Virus record (IMG/VR): IMGVR_UViG_3300020125_000075
Location: 1 to 32,372 of that record
From: a virus
Length of the DNA stretch: 32,372 bases
Direction: 5' to 3' (one strand)
Of the stretch, positions 1 to 32,372 are shown in pieces. Position 1 is the stretch's first letter. Each line of letters starts with the position of its first letter. Below the pieces are notes generated by a model that worked only from the letters and a program-made list of their open reading frames with translations, did no database searches and had not been told where the DNA came from. A program made the position numbers and the translations under genes.

Positions 1-127
1 AGACCGAAGCGGAATGAAGCGATTGCGTTGCGACTGCCATGTTCTGCGTGGAACTATATTTCTGTCCATGCTTCGCCAGATTTATCATCCTAGCGCGCTC
101 GACGTGAACTCGACGCATTGCCGTTAA
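1..127. repeat. Left copy of a 127-bp terminal direct repeat
   Basis: Bases 1-127 are identical to bases 32246-32372. An exact repeat of 127 bp at the two ends, equal to a common maximum assembly k-mer, is best explained as the overlap left when a circular contig is written linearly. The repeat lies inside a gene that reads through it in one frame, which supports the circular join and argues against a physical terminal repeat. Confidence 0.95.
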
Positions 128-2263: not shown

Positions 2264-3070
2264 TTAACTGGATGCTGTCACGTTCACTTTTCCTTCGTTT
2301 AATTTCTCGACAACCTCGTCGAGTGGGAAAATCGCGCTGCCTTCGTGCCTGAGTTGGATTCGCGTGTCGAGCATCACCTTGAATCCGAGTGCGCGCGCGC
2401 GGTCACAGAAAAACCAGTCCTCGCTCAGATATTCTTTGCTGACGACGCCTGCCGAAAAGAAGTCCCACTCATCCGCGCCGTGATTGGTATAGTGAGGAGA
2501 GGTTTGCCATTCATTGCGCAGTTGATCGATAACGGATTCAAGATGGTAGAAGTATTCTTCGGGAGATAATTTCGCTCTTAGCTCGGCAAGTTTCTCCGGA
2601 GAAGGACGTTCAATCGGTTGCCTGTCTTTCAGTTTTTCTAGAACTGATCGATGAATCCTAAGAAATCCGGTTCCGGCGCGTGCAATCTCGACGTATCCGC
2701 CGCAGGGCGTTTCCGGCTGTCCCGGCAGCGTGTTTAGACATGGTTCGATGCCTTTGCTCTTTTTGCAGTAGATGCCAGCGAGAAGAGGTTCATCCGACTC
2801 CATCAGGAAATCGATATGATGCTTGTCGAAGATGATGTCTGAATCGATGAAGAGAATGTAGTCGCGTTTCGTTTCGCGGAGGAAATGAGCCGCCGCGCGG
2901 TTTCTAGCCCGCGAGGGTAAACTGTCAGAGAAACGGTCAATGTGGATGTCTCGGTCCTTAAATCCTCGAAGGATAGAAAGAAGAAAATTGGCCCTGATCG
3001 CGCCGTGCCCATTATCAATTAGCGGCAGGAATATTGATGCCGTCCCGTTTAGGTTTAATATCTCTGACAT
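2264..3070 (-). CDS. GT-A fold glycosyltransferase, 268 aa
   Basis: The N-terminus (ASIFLPLIDNGHGAIRANFL) matches the nucleotide-sugar binding start of phage GT-A enzymes. It is followed by a DxD-type metal and sugar-nucleotide site in DYILFIDSDIIF. The C-terminal part LSEDWFFCDRARALGF resembles the Anp1/GT2-like acceptor region (E-D-x-x-F-C-x-R-A). It should transfer a sugar from a nucleotide donor in the cytoplasm. The ATG at 3068-3070 overlaps the 48-aa gene by 56 bp; no better start is visible. It is the last gene of the cassette and lies directly before the head-tail joining gene. The acceptor (virion protein, host glycan or DNA) cannot be read from the sequence. Confidence 0.85.
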   Translation of the reverse strand: MSEILNLNGTASIFLPLIDNGHGAIRANFLLSILRGFKDRDIHIDRFSDSLPSRARNRAAAHFLRETKRDYILFIDSDIIFDKHHIDFLMESDEPLLAGIYCKKSKGIEPCLNTLPGQPETPCGGYVEIARAGTGFLRIHRSVLEKLKDRQPIERPSPEKLAELRAKLSPEEYFYHLESVIDQLRNEWQTSPHYTNHGADEWDFFSAGVVSKEYLSEDWFFCDRARALGFKVMLDTRIQLRHEGSAIFPLDEVVEKLNEGKVNVTASS

Positions 3071-3161
3071 AAGATTCGTCTTTCGGTCGCATGACTGGTT
3101 TACCGCGTTTTTCTTTTTCTGCGATTGGAGGGATCACGCCCTCAAATTCCTGTTCTTTCAT
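3015..3161 (-). CDS. Small cassette protein of unknown function, 48 aa
   Basis: Begins at the ATG at 3159-3161, whose last bases form the TGA stop of the upstream GT-like gene (ATGA). It is highly charged, with many Lys, Arg, Glu and Asp and two Pro (for example IPPIAEKEKRGKPVMRPKDE), and has no membrane segment or Cys. The 4-bp coupling and its place between two glycosyltransferases suggest it is translated with the cassette. It may be an adaptor or regulator; no family is recognised. Confidence 0.6.
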   Translation of the reverse strand: MKEQEFEGVIPPIAEKEKRGKPVMRPKDESYVRDIKPKRDGINIPAAN

Positions 3162-3874
3162 TTGCTCGCTATGAGTTCGGCAATGTCGCTCATCACTATC
3201 TCGGCCCAGCGGCGCGAACCGTCCAGTCGTTCGGTAGAGAATTCGGCCATTAATGTGCTGGACACCGGTACCCCGCCGCGAATCAGATTTTCGGCCAGTA
3301 ATGTTTCGGGATGAAACGGGCAACCGTGCTTCAACAGGTTCGGAATTTCATCGTAAAGATTGAAATAAACTTCTGCGGCTCCGCGAGTCGAAATAGCCAA
3401 TCGATCATTGATGCCTCCGAACTTTCCCCACCATGGCGCGAAGCAAAACGTCCCGTATGCCGTAGCGCATTTTGTAAACGGCGGAGTAAATCTGTGAATC
3501 CAAAGATCCGGCCGGATGCGAATCACCACATCGAATGATTCAGTGGCCACAGAGGCGCAAAAGAAATCCCACACCTTTTTGTTTCCCCAATGCTGCAACA
3601 TTAGTTTTGAATGTGGTGCTGCGTTGGCATACGGAGCAGAAGCACCTGCCTCAATCGGGATCGCAGGCAAATCAATCGGGTCTTGATAACGTTCGACATT
3701 TACGTTTTCGTAATCGTCAGATAAGAGTTTTACGCTGTCCGCCTGCGCGTCGTCAACGCAACTAACGAAGAAATGGATGTCCGGTTCGTAATGCCTGAAG
3801 ATTTGCCATTTCTGCGTAGGGTAACACTTGGCGAAGGTTCGCATCTGACCGCTTATTAGAACTGCCGTTTTCAT
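3158..3874 (-). CDS. Glycosyltransferase-like surface polysaccharide protein, 238 aa
   Basis: Starts MKTAVLISGQMRTFAKCYPT, the hallmark opening (A-V-L-I-S-G-Q-x-R-T-F) of a family of putative glycosyltransferases found in capsule and lipopolysaccharide clusters. The motifs VVIRIRPDLWI and GGINDRLAIS fit the same family (R-x-D-L, then G-x-N-D-R). It is linked by ATGA overlaps to the 54-aa gene upstream and the 48-aa gene downstream. It probably works in the cytoplasm on a nucleotide-sugar donor; donor and acceptor are unknown. A sulfotransferase- or exostosin-like role cannot be excluded. Confidence 0.7.
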   Translation of the reverse strand: MKTAVLISGQMRTFAKCYPTQKWQIFRHYEPDIHFFVSCVDDAQADSVKLLSDDYENVNVERYQDPIDLPAIPIEAGASAPYANAAPHSKLMLQHWGNKKVWDFFCASVATESFDVVIRIRPDLWIHRFTPPFTKCATAYGTFCFAPWWGKFGGINDRLAISTRGAAEVYFNLYDEIPNLLKHGCPFHPETLLAENLIRGGVPVSSTLMAEFSTERLDGSRRWAEIVMSDIAELIASK

Positions 3875-4035
3875 TCCGGTTCAATTGTCTCGATAACGAC
3901 GTTTTCCCGTTCACCTATCTTTGTTTTCGACAATGCTTTTAGGAAATGATCAGAGTGGAATTTTCCTTCTTCGTGCGCCTGTAGTTCTTCAAGCGCCTCC
4001 TCGATATTCCGCATTGAGTAATATTTAATTTTCAT
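3871..4035 (-). CDS. Small cassette protein of unknown function, 54 aa
   Basis: A short frame fills the gap between the ThDP subunit and the GT-like gene. Its ATG (4033-4035) overlaps the upstream TGA, and its TGA (3871-3873) overlaps the downstream ATG. Exact 4-bp coupling on both sides is strong evidence that it is translated. The protein starts MKIKYYSMRNIEEALEELQA and is acidic and probably helical, with no Cys or membrane segment. Its position next to the PP subunit suggests a partner or regulatory peptide, which is inference. Confidence 0.65.
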   Translation of the reverse strand: MKIKYYSMRNIEEALEELQAHEEGKFHSDHFLKALSKTKIGERENVVIETIEPE

Positions 4036-4685
4036 CTTCGCATATGCATTTCGATCGCTTCCTTATCAAACTCGATCTTGAAACTGCAGCCGCTTCCTGC
4101 GTGCGGATATGTCGGCGTGTAGTGATAACGCCGAACGCATTTGAAAAGGTGCTCTAAGCCTTTGGCTTTTCCGCGGCGTGATTCGCGCGAAGTGTCAACG
4201 CTGCGGTTATTATCCTCGATGATAAACGTGCATGGCAGATCATTCGCCTCGACGAACATCGCAGCTTCGTAGAAATGCCCTTCCTCTTCGCCACCATCAC
4301 CGATGAAACACCAGACATGATCGTGCGTTCCGTAATCGGAAGAAGCTTCCCATTCTTTTCGTAACGTCCACGCGACGCCCGCCGCGATCCCCGCGCAACC
4401 AGCCAGAACCGCACTGCAAAGGAAATTGTGCTTGCGCGAATAGACAAACATCGAATCACCGTCACTGATCTTTTCCGATAGGATTACGGGATCGATGCCC
4501 GCCATGAGAGCATGATAGTGCGTCCGGTGCGTAGAAAATATCCAATCACCTTCTTTGATCTCTCCGAAGATCGAAACAAGTTCTTTCTCGTTGCCACCGC
4601 AAAGATGAATCAGCGAAGGAAGCAGGCCCGCCTCCCATGATGCTTTCACACCAGATTCGAAAGCAATTAGTCCTTCGGAGGTCAT
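4032..4685 (-). CDS. ThDP-dependent enzyme, E1-alpha-like PP subunit, 217 aa
   Basis: Carries the thiamine-diphosphate motif GDG at residues 129-131, 27 intervening residues, then NN at 159-160. Upstream, STHRTHYHALMAG (51-63) matches the E1-alpha signature S-T-x-R-G-H-x-H. The segment 83-107 aligns in style with the conserved glycine/alanine region of E1-alpha. Usual E1-alpha chains are about 320-370 aa, so this is a compact version made mostly of the PP domain. With the E1-beta-like PYR subunit at 5581-6108 it should form one ThDP active site. ATGA overlaps link it to the dehydrogenase gene and to the 54-aa gene. No E2 or lipoyl protein is encoded, so a classical acyl-CoA-forming complex is unlikely. 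The substrate is probably a 2-oxo acid or ketose used for glycan building. Confidence 0.85.
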   Translation of the reverse strand: MTSEGLIAFESGVKASWEAGLLPSLIHLCGGNEKELVSIFGEIKEGDWIFSTHRTHYHALMAGIDPVILSEKISDGDSMFVYSRKHNFLCSAVLAGCAGIAAGVAWTLRKEWEASSDYGTHDHVWCFIGDGGEEEGHFYEAAMFVEANDLPCTFIIEDNNRSVDTSRESRRGKAKGLEHLFKCVRRYHYTPTYPHAGSGCSFKIEFDKEAIEMHMRR

Positions 4686-5584
4686 TCCATTTCAATCAGC
4701 ACACGCCCGGCTTTTCCGTCGCGCATTAGTTGAATTCCTTCGTTGATTTGGTCGAGTTTGATCCTATGCGTGATTAGCTTTGGGTAATCGTTTAGCAAGC
4801 CATCGCGCCACATTTGGACATACCTCGGAATGTCTTCGTCTGGCTGAAATCCGCCGGCGGAAGTGCCGCCTGGTTGAAGCGAGATATATTTGTGAATGAA
4901 CGAAGGGTAGAATGTTCCAACCGTGTCGATTATTATGTCCGAGGCTGCCTTGTTTTGGAATACCGCTCCTAATTCCCTAACATTCGATAACTTCGATTTA
5001 TTTCGGTCCGTCCCGTAAACACGATTTGTTTTTAATCTCGCTGCTAGAATCAGCGCAAGTCCAACTCCGCCGCAACCAATGACGCAGACAGATTCGTTGC
5101 TTGTTGGCTTCGCTTCATTCTCGACAATCGCTAGTGCGGTCGAAAGCGCACAACCGAGAAGACAAGCCAGATCATTCGGAACATCGTCGTCGATCTTTGT
5201 CACGCGGTTTTCACTGACTGTCGAGTATTCAGAGAAGGTCGTAATCGGACCTCCTCGCAATGGCACATCAGGAAGCCACATTCCATAGAAAGCCTGCGGA
5301 ACATCCATTCCTGCTCCCTTGCGCCAGTGTAAAACGCATTTGTCTCCATGGTTAATATGCGTCACGCCTTTGCCGATCTTTTCGATGATGCCGAAACCCT
5401 CATGACCTAACAGATGCGGAAGATGCGAACGGTCGCCCTTAATGCCATCTATTTCCTGAAGTTGAGATCCGCAAATACCAGCACATAAGATTCGGACCAA
5501 AACCTGACCCGCTTCAGGTTCCGGAACTTTGAGATCGACTATCGACAACCGATCTCCTATTCGGTGAAGAACGGCAACTTTCAC
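4682..5584 (-). CDS. Zinc-binding medium-chain dehydrogenase, 300 aa
   Basis: GroES-like domain with catalytic-zinc ligands C38 (AGICGS), H61-E62 (LGHEGFG) and C145 (LLGCALS), then a Rossmann motif GCGGVG at 170-175 and an Asp at 193 suggesting NAD preference. The GHEG and VLHWRKG combination recalls dehydrogenases of surface-polysaccharide clusters. The four-cysteine structural-zinc lobe of classical alcohol dehydrogenases is absent between G80 and Y120. I start at the GTG at 5582-5584, which overlaps the upstream TGA (GTGA); a longer frame exists but would run 99 bp into the neighbour. It ends in an ATGA overlap with the PP subunit, so it sits between the two halves of the ThDP enzyme. It probably reduces or oxidises the product of that enzyme. 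Confidence 0.88.
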   Translation of the reverse strand: MKVAVLHRIGDRLSIVDLKVPEPEAGQVLVRILCAGICGSQLQEIDGIKGDRSHLPHLLGHEGFGIIEKIGKGVTHINHGDKCVLHWRKGAGMDVPQAFYGMWLPDVPLRGGPITTFSEYSTVSENRVTKIDDDVPNDLACLLGCALSTALAIVENEAKPTSNESVCVIGCGGVGLALILAARLKTNRVYGTDRNKSKLSNVRELGAVFQNKAASDIIIDTVGTFYPSFIHKYISLQPGGTSAGGFQPDEDIPRYVQMWRDGLLNDYPKLITHRIKLDQINEGIQLMRDGKAGRVLIEME

Positions 5585-6108
5585 ATGAAATCCTTGTATT
5601 CGACCAAAGCTGTTGAGAATTCCGAAAGCATGGCATGAGCGTGAAGGTATTCGGCGGCAATTTGGCTTGCATCTCCAAGGCAAATCACCGGAAAAGAAAC
5701 AAGCGACCTCAGCGCAGGACTATGGTCTTGAGTATGTGTCTTTCCGGTGAACAAAGGTTTATGCCGATTCCCGACAACGATCCTCAGTATCATCGTCGGA
5801 TTAAATTCGACATGACTGATTTCGCCGATCTTGTCTAAGTGATTTACGATTGCATCCATAGCGTTCAAGATGAAGTCGAATCGCTCGATGAACACGACAG
5901 GTTTTAGACCCTTCAGCGACAGTCCTATTGCGAAGCTAACCATGAGAGATTCAGCAACCGGCATTTCAATCAGTTGCGACCCAGGAACGTTCTTTAGCGT
6001 GCCCATCGCTTTGCCGTTCGTCACTCCGTAGCCGATAAATCGAACAAGCGGGTCGACCGCAAGCGCGTCCATTGCCGCGGTCAGTTCGTCTTTATAGAAG
6101 GCCGGCAT
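5581..6108 (-). CDS. ThDP-dependent enzyme, E1-beta-like PYR subunit, 175 aa
   Basis: Matches the transketolase pyrimidine-binding domain. The motif MPVAESLMVSFAIGLSLKG places the catalytic Glu at residue 53, and VFIERFDFILNAMDAIVNH resembles the E1-beta F-x-D-F-x-x-x-A-x-D-Q-I-V-N signature. GKTHTQDHSPALRS fits the following loop (H-S-x-x-L). Normal E1-beta proteins are about 325 aa and carry a C-terminal transketolase domain; this one stops after the PYR domain. The ATG at 6106-6108 overlaps the upstream gene by 17 bp and has a GAAGAGG ribosome-binding sequence. It is coupled by GTGA to the dehydrogenase. The pairing with the separate PP subunit is inferred from motifs and gene order. Confidence 0.85.
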   Translation of the reverse strand: MPAFYKDELTAAMDALAVDPLVRFIGYGVTNGKAMGTLKNVPGSQLIEMPVAESLMVSFAIGLSLKGLKPVVFIERFDFILNAMDAIVNHLDKIGEISHVEFNPTMILRIVVGNRHKPLFTGKTHTQDHSPALRSLVSFPVICLGDASQIAAEYLHAHAMLSEFSTALVEYKDFM

Positions 6109-6940
6109 GTTTCAAAACCTCTTCAGCTTCCTCTATTTTCTCACAATGCATGGTATTTGCGCTCAGGTTGACCCTCTCATTGTCCAAAAGAATAATCCGG
6201 TGCTTTATACTGTCACGGTTCCAAACGTTGAACGTCGGCCAACTGGGACCCGTGCTGACCATCAGGATTGTGTGGCAATGAAGGCTAAGATGCCCGATTT
6301 GAGTTGCCGTGAAATAAGGCTTAGCTAAACCGGAACCGCTCGTAACCACATGGAAGTCGTTGTACTCGAGCCGGTAGATAATTTGTTCAAGTTTAGATGC
6401 GTTGAAGTCGTGAAACTGTCCGCTAGCCGGCGGACTGTTAATTACCAGGACGTCGAAAGGAACCAAGTTATGAATCGGGGTCTTGATTGCCGGGTAATCG
6501 AAAAGCATATCTGACGGATCGCGCATTGGATTTTCGACTTCCATGCGTTCGCACAGATATGGGAACCACTCTTTCAAGTGAAACTCGATGAAGTCGTTCC
6601 TGATCTCGCTTTTATACCAAAATCCATTCGCTCCGCGCCAGGAATTGATGCTTCTATTGTGATCCCAGTTTTTGGGATAATCAGGATTTGGTTGCGATGC
6701 AGCGTGATGGAATTCGCGACTACCGTCGAACGGGTATCGGTAAAAAGTATCGTGTTCTATCTCGGTAATCTTGATGTTCGGTATATCGACAACCACCGGC
6801 TCGATCTGCCGCCGATACTGCCAACCTGCAGCATGAATGAACTGACGATCCGGATTGGCAAGCGCGACTTTCCGAAGGAAATGGAGATGGACGAGATTGT
6901 CGCCTAAATGAAACGCGTTATGCGTCCGTATGGTCTGCAT
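6092..6940 (-). CDS. GT-B glycosyltransferase-like protein, probably GT9-related, 282 aa
   Basis: First gene after the terminator and promoter at 6952-7018. The N-terminus (HNAFHLGDNLVHLHFLRKVA) has the G-D-x-L plus leucine-rich helix typical of GT9 heptosyltransferase-like enzymes. The C-terminal half has a second Rossmann-like part (VVTSGSGLAKPY) and LMVSTGPSWPTFNVW, which looks like the GT9 donor-binding loop (S-T-D-S-G-x-x-H-x-A) with changed residues. The start codon lies only 11 nt from the -10 box, so the transcript would be nearly leaderless. It probably adds a sugar to a glycan. The family call is from motif resemblance only. Confidence 0.6.
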   Translation of the reverse strand: MQTIRTHNAFHLGDNLVHLHFLRKVALANPDRQFIHAAGWQYRRQIEPVVVDIPNIKITEIEHDTFYRYPFDGSREFHHAASQPNPDYPKNWDHNRSINSWRGANGFWYKSEIRNDFIEFHLKEWFPYLCERMEVENPMRDPSDMLFDYPAIKTPIHNLVPFDVLVINSPPASGQFHDFNASKLEQIIYRLEYNDFHVVTSGSGLAKPYFTATQIGHLSLHCHTILMVSTGPSWPTFNVWNRDSIKHRIILLDNERVNLSANTMHCEKIEEAEEVLKHAGLL

Positions 6941-7659: not shown

Positions 7660-9561
7660 TTATTGGGCTGCTGAATCGGTTGAGATTTCGAACGCTACAG
7701 GGTGACGGATGCCGCAATCGACCCACTGATGGATCGTAACTTCGATCTGCTCGGATTTCTTAAGTGAGTAAGGATCGACAACAATGTCGAGTCCGGCCCA
7801 TCTCGCGGCAATAAAGTCGCTCCACACGCCGAGGATCGATTTGTTGCCAGGCATATTGTTGCTCATCGTGGCCGGATAACCGATCACCATGTTGTTATTA
7901 TCCCACAGCGGACTGGCAGTATTCTGGAAGGCGACCGCGGCTTTGAGTTTCGCGCGAGCGGCCGGCGAGAAGAGCCATGCCTGTGCGCCGATGTCTGCGT
8001 TTGCCACCGCAACATCTGATTCTTGTGTAAGCAGCTTTGCCAGCGTAGGGGTCGCCGAGTAAGTGATTGTTCCGACGCCGGGAGTATTGAAAATTCCGAG
8101 CGGTTCACCCGCGGTCCCTGAACCGTTCAGATAAACTCGGTCGAGTTCGACAGCTGACGCTGCGACGAGATCGTCCCGAACGAATGCCTCGACTGATAGC
8201 GATGCCTGATTCAAGAGTTGTTTCGTGTAGAAAGTGTCGGCGCCGAGACGATGCGGCATCAGGGTTAATTGACCGAACGCTTGCGTTGATGCCGTAACCG
8301 TAGCAGCTTCTGCAAGCCAGTAAGTTGTGCCGGTTCCGGTCACGCGCGGAATCGCAACGTTATTAACCAGACCGTCGAGCATTCGGATGCCCATTCCGGT
8401 TACAGTTGTGCGCGCCCGCAGATATTGGATCAGCGAACCGGTGAGAAGATCAGTTCCGATGAGATAACCACCCAGATTTTGCGTTCCTGCGAAGAGACCG
8501 CGCTTCAGCATCCGAACTTCGTCGAGAACACGGTTCATTTGCACGCTGCTAAGATCCTGGTCCTCTGCCATGTTCGATTGGCTCATGTCCTCCGGAAGCG
8601 TGTACCCTTCCCGGTTGTCGAGAACATTATCACCGGCTGAGCGAAGCTTTTCGCGGGCTGCGGTGCAGGCTTCTTTTTCGATTCCGGTTAGTTGACCGTT
8701 ATTTACAAATGCCTCTAGGATGAGTTTACGGACCGAGAACTGCTTCCGGTCTTTTTTCGACATTCCGATTTTCGTTTCCGGAATCTCGACGTGCTTTGCC
8801 GGATCAAATGCATTGTTGCATTCAAATTGAAACTTAGAGAAGTCGGCGGAATCGTTTTTATGCTTGGTCGCGATCTCGCGAGCGGCTTCCTGCCACTTCG
8901 GGAATTTGATCGCCGCGACGTGATCGTCGATGCGCTGGCAACGTTTCTGAAAATCTTTAACCGCGTCCTGAGCCGCCTTAACGGGATCAGCAGCGGGTTC
9001 GTTCACTACGGTTACTTGTTCGCTCATCGTCATTTCCTTTTTGTCAACTTGTCTGCCGAGTTCGAGTTCCTTAGTTTGTAGCGATCCACCGTCGCGCCCG
9101 ATTCCCACTGAAGTATCTGCTGGAACCGTAACCAATGAACACTCATAAGGTTCCCAATCGGTCGCGGTGAATGTCTTAGTGCCCTTCTCTTCGTCCATCT
9201 TGTGGATCTCGTAACCGATCGAGGCTTCGCCTAGAATCCCGTCCTGAACGTCCTGGAACTTTTCTTTTGCAAGCGGTGAACTGCCAAATTTCACGACCAC
9301 ATTTAGCTTAGAACCGTCCGCAGCCGCGCTGACAACCCTTCCGATATGCGCGTCCCGGTTGTGGTTGAACAGCAGCGGCCCGGACATTTTTAGCCGATCG
9401 AGCCGAATCGATCCGGCTTTATGGCTCAATATTTCATTTCCGAAAAAACGTCTGTAAGGTTTATCGCTTGAAACCGATAAGGTAGCCGTGCGCTCGTTTG
9501 GATCGACCGAATCGAAGTTGGCGCTTCGATAAAGCGTTTCCGGAATCTTGATCTTGCTCAC
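7660..9561 (-). CDS. Fused prohead protease, scaffold-like linker and HK97-fold major capsid protein, 633 aa
   Basis: Residues 1 to about 160 match a U35-type prohead protease, with His67 in LLFNHNRDAHIG and Ser114 in LGEASIGYEI. Residues from about 180 to 330 are charged and helical like a delta-domain or scaffold. The rest is an HK97-fold capsid protein (for example GTTYWLAEAATVTASTQAFG and a late LDIVVDPYS region). Cleavage after assembly should release the mature capsid subunit. The start is GTG at 9559-9561. Two in-frame ATGs at 9031-9033 and 9025-9027, preceded by AAGGA, could give a separate 457-aa or 455-aa product without the protease. Fusions of this kind are known in lambda-like heads. 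Confidence 0.92.
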   Translation of the reverse strand: MSKIKIPETLYRSANFDSVDPNERTATLSVSSDKPYRRFFGNEILSHKAGSIRLDRLKMSGPLLFNHNRDAHIGRVVSAAADGSKLNVVVKFGSSPLAKEKFQDVQDGILGEASIGYEIHKMDEEKGTKTFTATDWEPYECSLVTVPADTSVGIGRDGGSLQTKELELGRQVDKKEMTMSEQVTVVNEPAADPVKAAQDAVKDFQKRCQRIDDHVAAIKFPKWQEAAREIATKHKNDSADFSKFQFECNNAFDPAKHVEIPETKIGMSKKDRKQFSVRKLILEAFVNNGQLTGIEKEACTAAREKLRSAGDNVLDNREGYTLPEDMSQSNMAEDQDLSSVQMNRVLDEVRMLKRGLFAGTQNLGGYLIGTDLLTGSLIQYLRARTTVTGMGIRMLDGLVNNVAIPRVTGTGTTYWLAEAATVTASTQAFGQLTLMPHRLGADTFYTKQLLNQASLSVEAFVRDDLVAASAVELDRVYLNGSGTAGEPLGIFNTPGVGTITYSATPTLAKLLTQESDVAVANADIGAQAWLFSPAARAKLKAAVAFQNTASPLWDNNNMVIGYPATMSNNMPGNKSILGVWSDFIAARWAGLDIVVDPYSLKKSEQIEVTIHQWVDCGIRHPVAFEISTDSAAQ

Positions 9562-10039: not shown

Positions 10040-11821
10040 TTAATTCAATATTTCAGCAATCAATCCGGTTAAAAAATTTCCGGTCATACCAATAAAAACA
10101 CATACGGTGTCTCCTCCTGTTTCATTCCAGCTGAGATAGTGATATCCCAATCCAGGAGATCCCGAATAGCGCGCGGAAATTGGTTGTTCTATCGAACTGC
10201 CATTCTCGTTGTAACCCATCGCGTTAATCCCGGTCAACGTGGTGGTGGAATCAATCCCGATCCCAACGCCGCCGGCAGTACTGGATTGAGTCCGCACAAG
10301 AACCGTTGATTTAATTTCGCAGTTTACGTTAAGCGCAATATCTCCGGTGACATATTCGACCTTGTTTCCGGAAGCGTTATTAGCCTGCCTGATTGTAGCG
10401 GTGGTGTAACTCCATGTGGCAGTCGTATCAATTACTTTAATTGCTCGTGTTACGCGATTGTAATTATTCCATACAAATCGTTTCCCGCCCACCTGCGTAG
10501 TTGTCCCTCCGGCGCTATCAGCCGTTGTGTTAGTTCCATCGGCCCGAATTGTTCCTAGCCAAAGTTTAGTATGGTCGCTACCAAGAACAGTTACTCCATC
10601 CTGGGTTCCAAGTGCATTGGCGCGAGTCGTATCATTCGTCCACGCAGCCGACAAGCTAAGCGTAGTAGCGCCAGAGTCTATGAATACATCATAGTTTTTG
10701 CCGCTTGTAACCGTGAGTGCCAACGAAATTTGGGAAAACGTTTTTGCCTGCCACGCGGACCCATTCCATGTGTAAATATTATTGTGTAGATACGGAGTAT
10801 AATAAAGCGTTCCCTGTGCTGTGCGATCAGACGTTGAAACTGGGACACCGGATTCAGTCGTCAGGCGACCGCCCGGATTTGAAAAAACTACCGTGCCTCC
10901 GGGGAGATTAGTTAGAAGTGATCCATCGGCATGAAGCTTGGCATTACCGGCAGTTGACCCAAAATAAACGTCGGTTACGAGGTTGTTTCCGATTACAGCG
11001 GTATTACTGGCTTCAACCTGCGCCGAGGCTCCGATAGCGATACCATTAGTTAGCGTTCCACCGTTCACATGGTCTGCTGCTCGACCTATGAAAACCATTG
11101 ATGAATCGCCAATACTTCCACTACCGGTGGAACGACCAATAGCAGTGTTGTAACTGCCTGTATTATTAGATAACGAATCAGCCCCTACAGCAGTGTTGTA
11201 AATACCTGTGACATTAAATTGTAATGCGAATGCTCCAATGCCAACGTTGCCAACGTCTCCAGCGGGAGAATCCGAGCTTTGTAACGCCGAATTTCCTATC
11301 GCCAAATTATAGTTTCCAGCAGTATTTGAAATTAACGCGGAATGACCGATGGCAGTATTGTTACTTCCTGTATTATTTAACAAAAGTGTCTCGTTACCTG
11401 CAGAAATGTTTCCAATTCCGGTAGTTATCGAAAACAGTGACTTATGACCGATTCCTATATTACTATAACCTGCCGATGTATTATCAGATGGTTGAGAAAA
11501 ACCCGCTTGATAACCTAGGTACAGATTCCAAGTGTTGAAATTAGTAAATGAAGGATCAGGGTCGCTTCCCCAAATCCTGAATACCTCTACTCCATTGGCA
11601 TCCGTGACGTATATCCCAGTATTTAGAAGCGTGTATGGATGCGCGGCTATATTGCCTGAATCTCCGCTCGACGTAAGATGCAGAGCGGCAACGCTACTTA
11701 AACCTCCTCCGATTAAGCTGATCGTGGCTTTCTTGGTCGTTCCACTCTGGACAATTGGCAGAACATCTGACCCGTTTACCGAGGTCGCCGCCGGCAACTC
11801 CGAAATTTTTACGTCGCTCAT
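10040..11821 (-). CDS. Virion fibre protein with YadA/Hep_Hag-type repeats, 593 aa
   Basis: The N-terminus (VKISELPAATSVNGSDVLPI) is the anchoring motif common to phage head and tail fibres (I-S-E-L-P-A-A-x-x-x-x-x-S-D-x-x-P). Residues about 118-270 hold repeats of the NTAIG-SAL type (for example NNTAIGHSALISNTAGNYNL), as in the left-handed beta-roll heads of trimeric autotransporter adhesins. The C-terminal part is beta-rich and ends in a hydrophobic segment. It probably forms a trimeric fibre that binds a host or environmental glycan. It is encoded between portal and capsid genes instead of with the tail, so a head fibre is plausible. ATGA coupling joins it to the 88-aa gene. Confidence 0.75.
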   Translation of the reverse strand: MSDVKISELPAATSVNGSDVLPIVQSGTTKKATISLIGGGLSSVAALHLTSSGDSGNIAAHPYTLLNTGIYVTDANGVEVFRIWGSDPDPSFTNFNTWNLYLGYQAGFSQPSDNTSAGYSNIGIGHKSLFSITTGIGNISAGNETLLLNNTGSNNTAIGHSALISNTAGNYNLAIGNSALQSSDSPAGDVGNVGIGAFALQFNVTGIYNTAVGADSLSNNTGSYNTAIGRSTGSGSIGDSSMVFIGRAADHVNGGTLTNGIAIGASAQVEASNTAVIGNNLVTDVYFGSTAGNAKLHADGSLLTNLPGGTVVFSNPGGRLTTESGVPVSTSDRTAQGTLYYTPYLHNNIYTWNGSAWQAKTFSQISLALTVTSGKNYDVFIDSGATTLSLSAAWTNDTTRANALGTQDGVTVLGSDHTKLWLGTIRADGTNTTADSAGGTTTQVGGKRFVWNNYNRVTRAIKVIDTTATWSYTTATIRQANNASGNKVEYVTGDIALNVNCEIKSTVLVRTQSSTAGGVGIGIDSTTTLTGINAMGYNENGSSIEQPISARYSGSPGLGYHYLSWNETGGDTVCVFIGMTGNFLTGLIAEILN

Positions 11822-13492: not shown

Positions 13493-15682
13493 CTACTCCT
13501 GCGAAACGGTGAAGCCTTTTACCTTTCCGTCCGCATCTTTTTCAACACTCACCTTTTTGGTAGACGGCATTTGGACTTCGTTTGTAACCTCAACATTTGG
13601 AGCCGGCGAAGGTGCGACATTCACGATCACATCCGGCGGCTTTATTTCGGGAATCCTGATCTGTGCCGCGGCGACCTTGATGATCGGAGGTTTTGCTTCG
13701 GGAACGTTCACTGAAACCTGTCTTTCTGGAACGTTCACCACCATTTGACGCTCTGGAATGTTGACCGTGATCGGAGGCATTGATGCAGGAGGATGCGGTT
13801 TCGTGGCTTCGATCAGTTCCCTGAATTCGGTCATTGTTAAAGCTTTGCTGGTTCCGTCTGATGACTGTCCCGGTTGCGCTTCGCCGGCAGTGTTTTCGGT
13901 GTCGGCGGTATCCTCGGCGGGTTTGGTTGGCGAAACCTTCCCGACGACCGGAGTAGAATCCATTCCGAGCGCTGCCATCATCATTTCTTCTTCCGCCAGC
14001 TCGAATAGGACTTGCTCGAAGTCCGCGTCAACATCTGAATCTTCAATAATACGCGTGCGCGATGTAAACTTGTTGGCTACCTCTAGCGCGGACGATTGGA
14101 CCTCCTTGAGCGGATCAACCCATGCCCACCGTCGGCCGCGGAAGATTGGCTTATTGAATTTGTCAAACTTCGCCAATGGCAGCGGAATCGCTCCGGTTAG
14201 GAGTGCCATATAAAGCCATGCCTCAAATATCGGGCGCTCCGCGATCTCAATGTCGAATTTCTGGATCAGTTTCCATAGTTCGCGTTCATCGAGCATTCCC
14301 AGGCGACCGCTGGAATAATTCACGCCTTCTAGGTCGTTTGCGATAATGTTGTAATTCGCGCCTGGGAGTCCTGCGCACCATGCGCGCAGCAAGCCCTTTC
14401 GAAAAAGATCGAAGTTGCCATTCGGATGCGATGGATTCCATTCCTTAAAGTCGATTCCCCATTTCAGGCCAGTAAACGATCCCGGTTCGGCGTCCATTGT
14501 TCCCTCCTGTGTCGGATCGGGTCGGTCGCTCATCGCTTCGCCGCCTTCGGGAACCATGTTGGAAGTGAAGAAACCGAGTTTGCACGCCGACACGCGGGCG
14601 GCGACGACCTCGGCTTCCTCGTACTTGTCCAGATGTCGCGATTTCTGGATTACGCTGGCCGACCACGGCGCCGGCCGAGTTGAATCGCCATCTTCATATC
14701 GCGAGTAGTGAATAATGTCCTCGGCAAGAATGCGCTCGTAGCTTTTCGGAGCGGATGTCATTGCCGCGCCAGGAACTGAGAATTGCCAATCCTGAGGTTG
14801 CCGTTTTATGAAATAATAGGCGATTCGTTTGCCCATCGAGTCACGCTCGATGCCCATTCGGATCATATTCTTCGTGTCCGGATTGATGCTATTAAGCTGA
14901 AAATCGCACCACTCGGAATTGATTAGCTGTAGGCTGTAGCCATATTTATTGACCGCAGGCGATCTAACGTGCCGTATGAAGAAGTCACCGTCGCGCGCGG
15001 CCGACAGTAGCCGGATCTGGCAGACCTGATTGTAATCGAAACATTGCGCGACTGTGCAGTATTCGCGGCGTTTCCAATCGCGCCAACCTTCTTCGATTAC
15101 TTTGTTGGCGTATATATCCATGTCGCCGACTTGGATCGTTGCTTTGCGATCTAGATCTATGCCGCGGAGATCAAATTGGTTCGGTATTCCGCGGGTTCGC
15201 TCAAGATATTCTCCGAGCCGTTGTCGCCGCTTCCAGTAAGTCTTGTAAAACTTCTGCTCATCCGGAGAATATAGAACTCGATCCTCGGTTTCTTTGATCT
15301 CAAGACGGCAGGTAATGCCTTCCGCGCCGAATACGTTCGCCCATAGTTCCTCCTTGTATTTCTTGAAGTAAACATCGGTCCTGAACAGGTCGCGCGACCG
15401 CGAGCGAAGCGCGAAGATGTTCTGCCAAACATCCGAATCCTCCGAAATACCGGAAAGTGCCCAATCGGAATTGATTCCGCCAATGCCTACGACCTCTTTG
15501 TAGGCGCGCTTCATCTGCGTCATGGAAATCGATTCCTTGACGGAAATCACCTGATCGACTTGCGGCGATTGCTGCGCTGCCAGCTTGGCCAATGTCTTTT
15601 TGCCGGGTCCGCGGCGCCGCGGCGGCGGCTTGACTGGAGTCGGCCGCGGCCAATTGATTTTCGGAATGTCGAGGAATCCCAT
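13493..15682 (-). CDS. Lambda-type portal protein with repetitive C-terminal extension, 729 aa
   Basis: Follows the gpW-like connector with a TGATG overlap and shows the lambda-portal pattern. An N-terminal region has DVWQNIFALRSRSRDLFRTD. A central core includes RLLSAARDGDFFIRHVRSPA, then CAGLPGANYNIIANDLEGVN and YSSGRLGMLDERELW. Residues 638 to about 705 are an added tail with near-repeats (VNIPERQ, VNVPERQ, VNVPEAK, then further IPEIKPP-like units), before a short charged end. The portal forms the dodecameric gate for DNA packaging and binds terminase. Lambda portal is 533 aa, so this one is about 200 aa longer, much of it C-terminal. Confidence 0.92.
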   Translation of the reverse strand: MGFLDIPKINWPRPTPVKPPPRRRGPGKKTLAKLAAQQSPQVDQVISVKESISMTQMKRAYKEVVGIGGINSDWALSGISEDSDVWQNIFALRSRSRDLFRTDVYFKKYKEELWANVFGAEGITCRLEIKETEDRVLYSPDEQKFYKTYWKRRQRLGEYLERTRGIPNQFDLRGIDLDRKATIQVGDMDIYANKVIEEGWRDWKRREYCTVAQCFDYNQVCQIRLLSAARDGDFFIRHVRSPAVNKYGYSLQLINSEWCDFQLNSINPDTKNMIRMGIERDSMGKRIAYYFIKRQPQDWQFSVPGAAMTSAPKSYERILAEDIIHYSRYEDGDSTRPAPWSASVIQKSRHLDKYEEAEVVAARVSACKLGFFTSNMVPEGGEAMSDRPDPTQEGTMDAEPGSFTGLKWGIDFKEWNPSHPNGNFDLFRKGLLRAWCAGLPGANYNIIANDLEGVNYSSGRLGMLDERELWKLIQKFDIEIAERPIFEAWLYMALLTGAIPLPLAKFDKFNKPIFRGRRWAWVDPLKEVQSSALEVANKFTSRTRIIEDSDVDADFEQVLFELAEEEMMMAALGMDSTPVVGKVSPTKPAEDTADTENTAGEAQPGQSSDGTSKALTMTEFRELIEATKPHPPASMPPITVNIPERQMVVNVPERQVSVNVPEAKPPIIKVAAAQIRIPEIKPPDVIVNVAPSPAPNVEVTNEVQMPSTKKVSVEKDADGKVKGFTVSQE

Positions 15683-16275: not shown

Positions 16276-16857
16276 TCAAAATTGCCATCCGTCTAGCTTA
16301 ATTCCTGCCTCTCCGATTCGACTTACAAGCGTTCCGCGTTGATTATCGCGATCATTTGCGCCCTCCGTGCTGTGCCATTCGACCAATAAGCAGTCGATCG
16401 TGGGCCAAATATCCGGAAACAAGAGCAGGCATTCCAAAATCGGGAACTCACTGCCTTCGGCGTCGATCTTGATCGTCAACCTGTCCGGCGGCAGGATGTT
16501 CGACAAAATGAAATATCCAATGTTGTGGACCATTCCGATCGAGGAGACCGAAGTCTCGCGGTTGTCGATATAATGCTGGTTGAGATACAGTTCCGAGAAG
16601 AACGAATCGCCGCGCGGATCGTTCTTTTCAAATACGCGCTGCCAACCTGTTCGGTCCGACAATCCGAACGGGCAAATATTGATGCGCCAATGATGCCCAG
16701 CGGTCGCCATTTGCTCGCATTTCTCCCGAAGGGCAGATATATGCCGAGGACTCGGTTCGAAGCACCAGATCGTTCCTCCGTCGAATGCGGCCGTCTGCAG
16801 AAGGTAATCATCAAACGTTTGGCCGATATTCGCGCCGATGTCGAAGAAATGAATCAT
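16276..16857 (-). CDS. FkbM-family SAM-dependent methyltransferase, 193 aa
   Basis: Starts MIHFFDIGANIGQTFDDYLL, the FkbM motif I (D-I-G-A-N-x-G), followed by CFEPSPRHISAL (Glu after beta 2) and the family signature KIDAEGSEFPIL. It uses S-adenosylmethionine; known FkbM enzymes often methylate sugars or small molecules. It sits alone between large terminase and head genes, with about 100 bp before it and 27 bp after it, so it is an inserted accessory gene. Together with the glycosyltransferases at 2264-6940 it could methylate the same glycan, which is inference. Confidence 0.88.
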   Translation of the reverse strand: MIHFFDIGANIGQTFDDYLLQTAAFDGGTIWCFEPSPRHISALREKCEQMATAGHHWRINICPFGLSDRTGWQRVFEKNDPRGDSFFSELYLNQHYIDNRETSVSSIGMVHNIGYFILSNILPPDRLTIKIDAEGSEFPILECLLLFPDIWPTIDCLLVEWHSTEGANDRDNQRGTLVSRIGEAGIKLDGWQF

Positions 16858-16958: not shown

Positions 16959-18893
16959 TTAAACCTTGCTAAAACCGCTCATCCATCGGCTCCGACTCAT
17001 TCGCGGCGGGATCTTGGGAAGATCCATGTCGGGATTGATCGAGCGCACCAAAACCTCGTCGCCCGCGTTTTGGAACTCACGCGATAATTTTTCGTAGTTT
17101 GGCCGGTAAATCTGCTCCGCGGCGTTCGCGTAAACCTCCGCGTCGAGCGGTTCGTTCCGGTCGTCGCTGCTTTTCTTGAAGAAAAAGCGATAAAAGTTGC
17201 CATCGCGACCCCGTTGCATAACAGACTCCTCTATCGTGAGGCCCCTGAAATACGATTCTGTAAACGAGGATGTTTCTGGGAAGTGACAGTAACCTTGCAT
17301 GGCCGGGTCGCTGATTTCGAGTTGTTGATAGATAACGTCCTTGGCTTCATGCGTTCCAATTTCCCAAACAAGCGCCGGAGGAACGCCGCGTTTTGTCGGC
17401 TTCTTTGGGACGATCGGCTTCGAGATCGTAGTCGCGCCCTCACAAGCGTAGACCCGAAGGCGTTGCATCTTCCGCGTGAACGAAAAAACCTCGTCCGGTC
17501 GAAATCGTGAGTCGAAAAGGATGATTGACGGGTGAATATACTTCCCGCACGGGTGTTTCCATGCCACATTCTGAAATACGCTCGCGCATTTCTCCCAAAA
17601 TTCATCCTGCAGCGGCGAACCTCGGATAATCCGGTAATCAATCGCCCAGGACTGCTTTAGACCGTTGCTGAAGCCCCAACCTTTGAACTTTACCTCGGCT
17701 CGGTTTGATTGAAGATCGCATCCGCCAGTAATGAATACGACTTCGGCGGGCAAAACTTCTCGCGGATCGTAGCGTTCGCGCCGTTTGTAGAGTGCTGTGT
17801 GCTCGATCTTTTGGAGATGTTCTGGTTCGTATGACTCTGCGTCTCTGGTGTTGACCAGCACTCGGCGGGCGCGCTCTGGATTGTCGGCCTGATCAACGGC
17901 GATCTCTTCGAGAGCGAGCATCTGAAGGAATCCGCCGGGATATTTCGCTCGGTCAACAGGATGCGGCCACAATAGCGCATTAGCGTGAAATCCGGCGATA
18001 CCCTTGAAAGGACTTGTGGCGACCCATTTACCTGATCGGGCCATTGCTGCTCTCGCGTTGTCGTCGTGGAGTGCATGGCAAGTTGGACATTGGATTACTG
18101 CTAATTCTGTTTGCTCCCGGTCGTAGCGCAACTCTTTTCTATGCATCACCCACGGGTCACCGCACTTAGCGCAATGCACTTCCCAGACGCGCTTATCCGA
18201 CAAATCGTATTTGCTATCGATGTTGGATTGGCCTTTAAGTGATGGGTATGAGCAATAGACCTGTACGGTATCAGGATATTCGCTCCCTCTTACAGCAAAT
18301 TGGCGCAGCTGATCTCCTTCATCGCTCTCGGCTATCGCAATTGCATCTATCTCATCTGCATAGAGAAAATTGCCCTTGGCTCTACGAAAATCGCCCGGAA
18401 CATTTGCTCCAAACATCGAAATGTATCCGCCGGGAAAGATCTTGCTGAGAATAGTGTTGTTCGCCAGACGACGACCCCGACCGTCCTGAAGCAGATTCTG
18501 CAAAGCCGGAGTAGGATCGACCAATTCGCCCATCAGATGTTTCTTTGACCATTCCTCGCTGTCGCCAATCTTCGGCCACATGACGAGGATCTTGCGCGGC
18601 GCTTCCGCGATGCAATAGCCGATCGCGCCGAGAACGGTCATAGTTTTGGTGAGGCGGCTCGCCATCTTGAACACGACTTCGCGATTTCGCGGGTTGAAAA
18701 TCTCGTTGAACATTTCGCGCTGCGGCGGGAAAAAACCGAAATCAAACCGTCGCGTTGAACCGTGTTCACCTGGCATGCGAATAAACTTCTCCGCGAACTC
18801 GTCCGGCGGGAGTCGTTGCCAATGCGCAAAGGACGCGAGAAGCAATTTGGCGACCGCGGATTGATACGCTGCGCGCGAAACTGGATCAGTCAT
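16959..18893 (-). CDS. terL: Terminase large subunit, GpA family, 644 aa
   Basis: ATPase domain with a variant P-loop around residues 75-85 (FKMASRLTKTM) and Walker B at 177-182 (FLYADEID). A zinc-finger-like Cys set follows at 241, 244, 269 and 272 (CAKCG, CPTC), as in lambda gpA. The nuclease domain begins near FITGGCDLQSNR with an acidic residue at 393 and continues to LDAEVYANAAEQIY. It cuts and pumps phage DNA into the prohead with the Nu1-like small subunit. I start at the ATG at 18891-18893, which overlaps the upstream TGA (ATGA); a longer frame adds eight residues overlapping the neighbour. GpA enzymes usually make cohesive ends, so the virion DNA may have cos ends. Confidence 0.95.
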   Translation of the reverse strand: MTDPVSRAAYQSAVAKLLLASFAHWQRLPPDEFAEKFIRMPGEHGSTRRFDFGFFPPQREMFNEIFNPRNREVVFKMASRLTKTMTVLGAIGYCIAEAPRKILVMWPKIGDSEEWSKKHLMGELVDPTPALQNLLQDGRGRRLANNTILSKIFPGGYISMFGANVPGDFRRAKGNFLYADEIDAIAIAESDEGDQLRQFAVRGSEYPDTVQVYCSYPSLKGQSNIDSKYDLSDKRVWEVHCAKCGDPWVMHRKELRYDREQTELAVIQCPTCHALHDDNARAAMARSGKWVATSPFKGIAGFHANALLWPHPVDRAKYPGGFLQMLALEEIAVDQADNPERARRVLVNTRDAESYEPEHLQKIEHTALYKRRERYDPREVLPAEVVFITGGCDLQSNRAEVKFKGWGFSNGLKQSWAIDYRIIRGSPLQDEFWEKCASVFQNVAWKHPCGKYIHPSIILFDSRFRPDEVFSFTRKMQRLRVYACEGATTISKPIVPKKPTKRGVPPALVWEIGTHEAKDVIYQQLEISDPAMQGYCHFPETSSFTESYFRGLTIEESVMQRGRDGNFYRFFFKKSSDDRNEPLDAEVYANAAEQIYRPNYEKLSREFQNAGDEVLVRSINPDMDLPKIPPRMSRSRWMSGFSKV

Positions 18894-19138
18894 GTTTTCG
18901 CTTCGCCGTGAATGCATCCGAAATCCGGCATCGTAATTAAACTCACCTCTCCGACCGCGTTCTTAATTGGCTCGTCTCGCGGCTCGATCCAAAGATCGAG
19001 CCACGCTTTTTTATCAGTAGAGAACTCGTCGAGTAAGTGACATTCGCCGTGAGGACCGCGCCATTCCTCATAATTTTCCTCACGTATCTTGCGCCAGTGG
19101 CGACATTCTCCGCATTTAGTCATGTTTGCCGTTGCCAT
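18890..19138 (-). CDS. Small Cys-rich, probably zinc-binding protein, 82 aa
   Basis: Contains four Cys and several His in a knuckle-like pattern (CGECRHWRK, then HGECHLLDE, then DFGCIHGEAK). The pattern C-x2-C-x2-W...G-x-C...F-G-C is seen in small phage and bacterial Cys-rich proteins. It lies between small and large terminase genes, overlapping the former by 23 bp and the latter by ATGA. A start at the second ATG (19121-19123) is possible. A packaging accessory role is suggested only by position. Confidence 0.7.
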   Translation of the reverse strand: MATANMTKCGECRHWRKIREENYEEWRGPHGECHLLDEFSTDKKAWLDLWIEPRDEPIKNAVGEVSLITMPDFGCIHGEAKT

Positions 19139-20672: not shown

Positions 20673-21176
20673 TCACTTCAAGAAACTAAGCCAATGTGTC
20701 GTCAGGGATTTTCCGCTCCGGTGTCCATAAAGCGGCCGCTTTTCTGTGAGCTGTAGAACTCGCGAAAGCGGAATCTCGTTTGAACACCATTTGAAAACAA
20801 GCGTTCCGCACGGTTTTAGAACTCTAAAGCATTCACAGAATCCCTCTTTGATGCTTTCCTCCCATCCATCAATGAGCATCCCGTATTTGTGACTGAGATC
20901 CGAATTTATTCCCATTGAAGCATTAGAATAATGCGGAGGGTCGAAAACGATGTGCGAAAAGCTTTCGTCGGGAAATGGGATGGATATGAAATCGCTGAGA
21001 ACTTGAGGATCTGTCACAGACGGACTTCGCCCAATAGTCCCCGGCGTGCCTTTGTCGACGATCCATGTTTCGCGTCGTCGGTCCATGAACACAGCTCGTT
21101 CGTCGTCGTGATCGAACCAAAACATTCTCGGACCACAGCACACATCCAGAACTGGAGGGAAAATGCAGTAGCTCAT
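20673..21176 (-). CDS. Phage class I SAM-dependent methyltransferase (DPPH motif), 167 aa
   Basis: Motif I-like start VLDVCCGPRMFWFDHDD (9-25), an acidic residue after strand 2 (VFMDRR) and a DPPH catalytic-type motif at 79-82 (HIVFDPPHYSN), followed by FRVLKPCGTLVFKWCSNEIP. This layout is a recurrent phage family related to DPPY-type N6-adenine or N4-cytosine DNA methyltransferases. It could methylate phage DNA to evade restriction, but no target-recognition domain is visible, so the substrate is unproven. ATGA overlap with the replication gene. About 170 aa is normal for this group. Confidence 0.85.
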   Translation of the reverse strand: MSYCIFPPVLDVCCGPRMFWFDHDDERAVFMDRRRETWIVDKGTPGTIGRSPSVTDPQVLSDFISIPFPDESFSHIVFDPPHYSNASMGINSDLSHKYGMLIDGWEESIKEGFCECFRVLKPCGTLVFKWCSNEIPLSRVLQLTEKRPLYGHRSGKSLTTHWLSFLK

Positions 21177-31959: not shown

Positions 31960-32372
31960 TTGCGTTGTTCTTTTTCAGGCATATCCCTGCTAATCTCCAA
32001 AATCTTTTCTCCGTCCTCGAATCTTATGATCGGAATACATTCAGGATCGCGCACAAGCTTCGCCAGCCAATCGCGATACTTCAGGGCCTCAAGCATCCAA
32101 TCGACGCACAGATCAACGGTTAGCGGGCGTTCCCTGGGTCTACCGCCGGCTTTGATTAGATCGCAGATGATTTCCGCGCCTTTTTCGAATATCCATTGTC
32201 GGCTCGATGGGTCATAACCGATTAACGGAATGTCGCAGGCTGACAAGACCGAAGCGGAATGAAGCGATTGCGTTGCGACTGCCATGTTCTGCGTGGAACT
32301 ATATTTCTGTCCATGCTTCGCCAGATTTATCATCCTAGCGCGCTCGACGTGAACTCGACGCATTGCCGTTAA
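31941..32372 (-). CDS. Tail-region protein of unknown function, C-terminal part (gene split by contig ends)
   Basis: Continuation of the gene that starts at 421. Bases 32246-32372 duplicate 1-127, so the visible ATG at 32361-32363 is internal. The C-terminal half includes RERPLTVDLCVDWMLEALKY and RWLAKLVRD-like helices, ending in EKEQRKWISHL. It overlaps the chaperone gene by 19 bp. With the N-terminal part it makes one 241-aa protein. Unknown function. Confidence 0.75.
   Translation of the reverse strand, partial: LTAMRRVHVERARMINLAKHGQKYSSTQNMAVATQSLHSASVLSACDIPLIGYDPSSRQWIFEKGAEIICDLIKAGGRPRERPLTVDLCVDWMLEALKYRDWLAKLVRDPECIPIIRFEDGEKILEISRDMPEKEQRKWISHL
32246..32372. repeat. Right copy of the 127-bp terminal direct repeat
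   Basis: Exact copy of bases 1-127. Removing one copy gives a circular or circularly permuted genome of about 32,245 bp. Confidence 0.95.

Follow-up and report, generated by a model that had tools for sequence, protein, structure and literature searches.

Why should a phage carry, between its capsid and head-joining genes, a thiamine diphosphate (ThDP) enzyme, a dehydrogenase and glycosyltransferases? The question is raised by positions 2264-6940 of the virus record IMGVR_UViG_3300020125_000075, whose 32,372 bases we call the window. A sequence-only reading had named the open reading frames (ORFs) of such a cassette, and they are indeed present on the minus strand, between the capsid gene and the head-joining genes. 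Their order is GT9-fold protein, ThDP subunit PYR, zinc-type dehydrogenase (ADH), ThDP subunit PP, a 54-amino-acid (aa) ORF, a 238-aa protein, a 48-aa ORF and a GT-A-like protein, followed by the head-joining genes. Our answer, in which we place about even confidence, is that the virus uses the cassette as a module for sugar tailoring and glycosylation, combining two-carbon addition by the ThDP enzyme, a redox partner and attachment by glycosyltransferases. That the cassette acts on a sugar is well supported; the two-carbon branching step is our best guess. In the open-access literature we found no described phage module of a ThDP enzyme with a dehydrogenase or a radical SAM enzyme.

The proposal that the cassette encodes a real two-subunit ThDP enzyme was borne out by Pfam matches and conserved active-site residues. 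Judged from sequence, PYR and PP together are a predicted minimal E1-like enzyme. PYR (5581..6108, minus strand, 175 aa) is a PYR domain of the E1-beta/transketolase kind that lacks the C-terminal domain, with matches to PF02779 (Transket_pyr, 7.6e-7), phrog_34187 (7e-44) and E1-beta structures. PP (4032..4685, minus strand, 217 aa) is a minimal E1-alpha, with matches to PF00676 (E1_dh, 2.5e-14), phrog_34187 (1.7e-65) and pyruvate dehydrogenase (PDH) E1-alpha (1.3e-18). The 405-aa family phrog_34187, a single chain with PP ahead of PYR, takes in both subunits. Profiles rank PDH and branched-chain E1 structures above DXS and transketolase, and the model of a fused homolog (L064; pLDDT 86.9, pTM 0.90) matches transketolase, DXS and E1-beta folds.

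The catalytic residues named in the sequence-only reading were recovered as E53, the catalytic glutamate of PYR, and as the ThDP motif GDG129-131...NN159-160 of PP. Across relatives, H27, R54 and GDG of PP are invariant and N159 nearly so, while E53 and H125 of PYR are conserved, the latter aligning with the active-site histidine region of E1-beta. The GDG...N motif, the catalytic glutamate and the active-site histidine of a 2-oxo acid dehydrogenase E1 are thus all present. In an alignment with human E1-alpha, H27 of PP falls on the H of 'CHLCDGQE' and R54 on the R of 'YRAHG'; we take the human counterparts to be His63 and Arg90, acting at ThDP. In the Pfam search, PYR matched PF02779 only, with neither PF02780 (the E1-beta C-terminal domain) found on PYR nor the second half (tail) of E1-alpha on PP. 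The E1-beta C-terminal domain docks E1 to E2. As the sequence-only reading had said, no E2 lipoyl partner was found among the larger window ORFs scanned with Pfam, and this, together with the lost docking domain, fits a free acceptor. An E2-linked E1 was ruled out on the same two grounds; a full-size phage E1 elsewhere (L149) does carry PF02780.

Between the ThDP genes lies ADH (4682..5584, minus strand, 300 aa, with a GTG start within ATGTGA), a zinc-type member of the medium-chain dehydrogenase/reductase (MDR) superfamily that matches PF08240 (ADH_N, 5e-15) and phrog_2640 (2.6e-65). The catalytic zinc triad C38/H61/C145 and the NAD(P)-binding motif GxGGxG (G170-x-GG-x-G175) are present, as is D193, a position at which aspartate in the MDR superfamily usually signals NAD over NADP. 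The four-cysteine structural-zinc lobe of a classical ADH subset is absent, with no cysteine between residues 83 and 141, and the nucleotide-binding part is about 23 residues shorter than in the cyanophage proteins. An oxidative, ketone-making step fits at least as well as reduction of the ThDP product, because of this NAD-type aspartate and because a radical SAM enzyme replaces ADH in most relatives. In a simple hydropathy scan for membrane segments, ADH and PP showed peaks near 2, which we ascribe to soluble folds.

The evidence that carries most weight comes from related viruses. For each query the 80 most similar loci were analyzed, so that the counts describe relatives of the query and not all viruses. 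A scan of viral contigs seeded with PP gave 102 relatives; in the best 80 of these, the other ThDP half is nearly always adjacent and the third gene is a radical SAM/SPASM enzyme in about 70. Seeding with PYR, PP was present in all 39 loci with enough flanking sequence, accompanied by radical SAM/SPASM in 35, by ADH in 4 and by both in none. After dereplication at 80%, all 14 loci had PP and one of the two redox enzymes. Seeding with ADH, a ThDP enzyme was found alongside in 78 of 79 informative viral loci (the exception is L145), and in 35 of 35 after dereplication, where three ThDP types are still represented. These types are the minimal E1 (62 loci), a split transketolase-type pair (12 loci; Transketolase_N plus Transket_pyr, with no Transketolase_C in those checked) and a full-size E1 (4 loci, including L140, which is truncated at a contig end and may be minimal). 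Chance adjacency was ruled out by the PYR- and ADH-seeded counts. The link between the ThDP halves and the dehydrogenase, for which a neighborhood search had been set as the refuting test, therefore stands, as the search revealed wide co-occurrence elsewhere.

The redox partner has also been exchanged. On a tree built from 63 dereplicated ThDP pairs, at least two partner changes on well-supported branches are required to explain the labels, and the ADH clade of the window is nested among pairs whose partner is otherwise radical SAM. The pairing thus outlives replacement of either member, and this is our strongest evidence that both enzymes act on one pathway.

Loci in which the ThDP slot beside ADH is held by transketolase-type halves or a full-size E1 include L117 (8165-9390), L138 (6733-7942) and L149 (8041-10072). 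The relative L002 has a second, short radical SAM protein (5437-6225) between PYR and ADH, unlike the main radical SAM family.

Gene junctions are less informative than the sequence-only reading had assumed. Most are exact 4-bp overlaps, as it had noticed (5 of 7; GT9-fold and PYR overlap by 17 bp, and the 48-aa ORF and the GT-A-like gene by 56 bp). The fixed stoichiometry that it had drawn from these overlaps did not survive, since such overlaps are also found elsewhere in the genome (1939-2262/1472-1942 and 11818-12084/10040-11821), and other genes are inserted between the ThDP halves in the relatives L002, L003, L005 and L099.

Using the same four relatives for comparison with the window cassette, we obtained nonsynonymous divergence (dN) of 0.16-0.35 and synonymous divergence (dS) above 1.7 where computable, with dN/dS ratios of 0.04-0.16 that are rough since dS is saturated. 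The cassette is under purifying selection in the relatives of the window, and dN far below dS speaks against decay. Sullivan et al. (2010) stated that it was not known whether the lipopolysaccharide (LPS)-type clusters of cyanophages are functional or 'stuffer DNA' (PMC3037559). Survival of the pairing through a swap of either partner, together with purifying selection, including in a genome of 32 kb that could hold little stuffer, argues for function. Hundreds of viruses with versions of the set, built of interchangeable parts, suggest an unusual surface sugar rather than stuffer. Two purifiable enzymes are thereby identified with which the function of LPS-type phage clusters can be tested.

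The family is mostly viral. A scan of cellular contigs gave at least 5 copies, which are rare and mostly archaeal, the archaeal ones lying beside radical SAM, GT9-like and HldE-like genes. In surveys of 297 genomes of one bacterial phylum and 292 of another, no genome but the seed carried the family; in an archaeal phylum, 6 of 279 genomes did. Ordinary host metabolic genes were ruled out on account of this rarity in cells. The existence of cellular copies also means that the suggested glycan precursor is not 'phage-specific' in the strict sense.

In the cultured cyanophages S-SM2 (of Synechococcus) and P-TIM68 (of Prochlorococcus), ADH is followed by a fused PP-PYR and then by genes for a kinase, an epimerase, an HldE-type nucleotidyltransferase and a phosphoheptose isomerase, an order that recurs in many viral contigs. 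Such heptose-type neighbors were found for relatives in cyanophages, in a Prochlorococcus contig and in archaea, pointing to heptose-type sugars as a common theme.

The first gene of the cassette (6092..6940, minus strand, 282 aa) had no sequence match in Pfam, NCBIfam, PHROG or PDB. As the PDB sequence search gave nothing, it was searched by fold, using an AlphaFold2 model (pLDDT 80.6) and Foldseek. The ten best matches were all GT9 heptosyltransferases (WaaC, WaaF, TibC; E 1e-5 to 3e-4, TM by query 0.50-0.59), so that the protein is a modeled GT9, heptosyltransferase-like glycosyltransferase by fold, not by sequence profile. The last gene (2264..3070, minus strand, 268 aa) encodes a GT-A-like glycosyltransferase (phrog_1574, 2.4e-24) with an invariant FIDxDI motif; its Pfam matches, Glycos_transf_2 (0.007) and Glyco_transf_21, are both below threshold. 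The conserved 238-aa protein (3158..3874, minus strand) is perhaps glycosyltransferase-like. It matched no profile of a known glycosyltransferase, its only match being phrog_13607 (4e-7), of unknown function, and is 66-69% identical in L002, L003 and L099 and 44% in L004. The GT9 fold and the heptose-type genes beside relatives agree with the glycan-precursor role proposed in the sequence-only reading. The 54-aa ORF (3871..4035) is unassigned and the 48-aa ORF (3015..3161) is a weak gene call; both are on the minus strand, and no counterparts of either were detected in the nearest relatives.

We infer the following scheme, in substrate, step order, redox direction, two-carbon branching and target alike. 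ADH, or radical SAM in most relatives, would oxidize or reduce a sugar carbon, with formation of a keto group the most likely outcome; less likely, the partner enzyme would reduce the ThDP product. In aminoglycoside pathways, the radical SAM enzyme BtrN and an NAD-dependent counterpart are interchangeable in oxidizing a cyclitol hydroxyl. PYR and PP would generate a two-carbon carbanion, with either a pyruvate-type 2-oxo acid or a ketol as the donor, and add it to a sugar carbonyl, the keto group set by the redox partner, in place of lipoate. The GT9-fold and GT-A-like proteins, and perhaps the 238-aa protein, would put the sugar on its target. Nucleotide-sugar genes were not recognized in the window, so that the module would use host precursors or, as has been suggested for paulomycin and avilamycin (PMC4425429), modify a sugar after its attachment.

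In those two pathways, the E1-like pairs Pau11/Pau12 and AviB1/AviB2 are proposed to put a pyruvate-derived two-carbon branch on an attached ketosugar (PMC4425429, PMC4753412). As in the phage, genes for sugars and glycosyltransferases surround a two-subunit E1-type ThDP enzyme, and the oxidoreductase is a protein of its own. The known pairs, however, belong to bacterial antibiotic clusters and not to phages, are likened here by their descriptions, and have other redox partners (AviO2 is a non-heme iron enzyme and Pau7 an aldo-keto reductase). Another ThDP enzyme, YerE (yersiniose), likewise branches a surface sugar with a two-carbon unit, but it is a single flavoprotein and not an E1-like pair (PMC4753412). 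Among viruses, S-SM2 and P-TIM68 have the same families as the window (phrog_34187, phrog_2640) with adjacent ThDP and ADH genes, but the ThDP halves are fused, ADH lies upstream and not between them, and the setting is a large LPS-type cluster with kinase, nucleotidyltransferase and GmhA. Other phage cassettes, with the order PYR, radical SAM, PP or PP, PYR, radical SAM (for example, L006 and L049), share the ThDP pair and its GT9-like and glycosyltransferase neighbors, but carry a radical SAM/SPASM enzyme in place of ADH. A 563-aa GT2-type glycosyltransferase (L006, 3946-5637) immediately precedes the GT9-like gene, an arrangement that recurs in the radical SAM cassettes of many related phage contigs. 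On these comparisons, the module would be a viral counterpart of the E1-like sugar-branching systems, with unusual modularity. Should its chemistry be confirmed, viruses would have their own route to unusual sugars, and a small ThDP carboligase independent of E2.

Several points weigh against the branching module. The selection estimates are imprecise, and both the substrate of the module and a dehydrogenase role of the radical SAM family are putative. The minimal subunits (217 and 175 aa) are far shorter than the full-length Pau11/Pau12 (325 and 345 aa). The transketolase-type replacements suggest a ketol and not an acetyl donor, at least in some phages, and plain heptose supply is also consistent with the GmhA and HldE-like genes of cyanophage clusters. 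A transketolase-like enzyme would then extend the chain to a ketose phosphate such as sedoheptulose 7-phosphate, ADH would be a ketose or polyol reductase, and the product an ADP-heptose-like donor for GT9. This reading, which we consider unlikely, draws on the GT9 fold, on the transketolase-type pair at 12 viral loci and on cyanophage-type clusters in which ADH and the ThDP enzyme precede genes for a PfkB kinase, an epimerase, a CTP_transf_like nucleotidyltransferase and phosphoheptose isomerase. But GmhA, kinase and nucleotidyltransferase were not recognized in the window, most of the ThDP pairs are like E1, a family that uses 2-oxo acids, the radical SAM partner is hard to account for, and hosts have their own transketolase. 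The E1 homology could also mean that the phage supplies host energy metabolism through a 2-oxo acid decarboxylase or dehydrogenase. We give this very little credence, since no E2, E1-beta C-terminal domain or E1-alpha tail was seen and since glycosyltransferases and either ADH or radical SAM constantly accompany the pair. It is just as improbable that the redox, ThDP and glycosyltransferase enzymes modify the bases or nucleosides of phage DNA: phages do use glycosyltransferases on DNA, and the L049-group cassette lies near a RecT-like gene, but no nucleotide-modifying enzyme was recognized in the cassette, and cellular relatives lie beside heptose and GT9-like genes.

If the branching module is accepted, its target could be a virion protein or a host-surface glycan. 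We slightly favor the former, at near even weight, because of the late region beside the capsid gene, because no membrane-anchored glycan machinery was recognized among the cassette genes, and because of the fold similarity to TibC, which heptosylates a protein. The late position is seen in two phage lineages, the window group and the L006 group, where the cassette likewise follows a capsid-like gene, assigned from our reading of the sequence. In the L049 group, the RecT-like gene and not a capsid gene is the neighbor, which weakens the case for the virion, and the cyanophage setting and the usual GT9 role favor host LPS, making the choice close to even. The same chemistry would then place the sugar on host lipopolysaccharide or capsule, blocking superinfection or altering the receptor. 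We hold this a real, if lesser, possibility: GT9 is the LPS heptosyltransferase family, the cyanophage relatives lie within clusters long termed LPS genes (PMC3037559), and SAR11 phage glycosyltransferases were interpreted likewise (PMC7029224), but no polyprenol or flippase-type component was recognized in the cassette and the position beside the capsid gene recurs in two different lineages. In its fullest form, the branching module would be widespread and mostly viral: a minimal E1- or transketolase-like ThDP enzyme, no longer tied to E2, would work with a redox enzyme that can be exchanged (an NAD-type dehydrogenase or a radical SAM enzyme) to build a higher-carbon, branched sugar, new to cellular biology, as a decoration for virions; we regard this as unlikely.

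The genome around the cassette is complete. An exact 127-bp direct repeat at the ends of the window (1-127 and 32246-32372) indicates a circular phage genome, in which the gene at the record start runs on at the record end. A Pfam scan identified packaging and head genes of lambda type: a GpA-like terminase (16959-18917), whose relatives are only about 30% identical, a lambda-family portal (13493-15682) and a capsid fused to an S78 protease (Phage_capsid; 7660-9561). Two small ORFs and a 101-bp gap separate the capsid gene from the GT9-fold gene. A 593-aa protein (10040-11821) without a Pfam match has short repeats resembling YadA-type adhesin heads and is possibly a tail or fiber protein. Outside the structural genes, a 167-aa protein (20673-21176) has a weak methyltransferase match. 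An FkbM-type methyltransferase (16276..16857, minus strand; PF05050, 2.4e-7) also lies outside the cassette; its homolog in L002, with 40% identity, directly follows PP.

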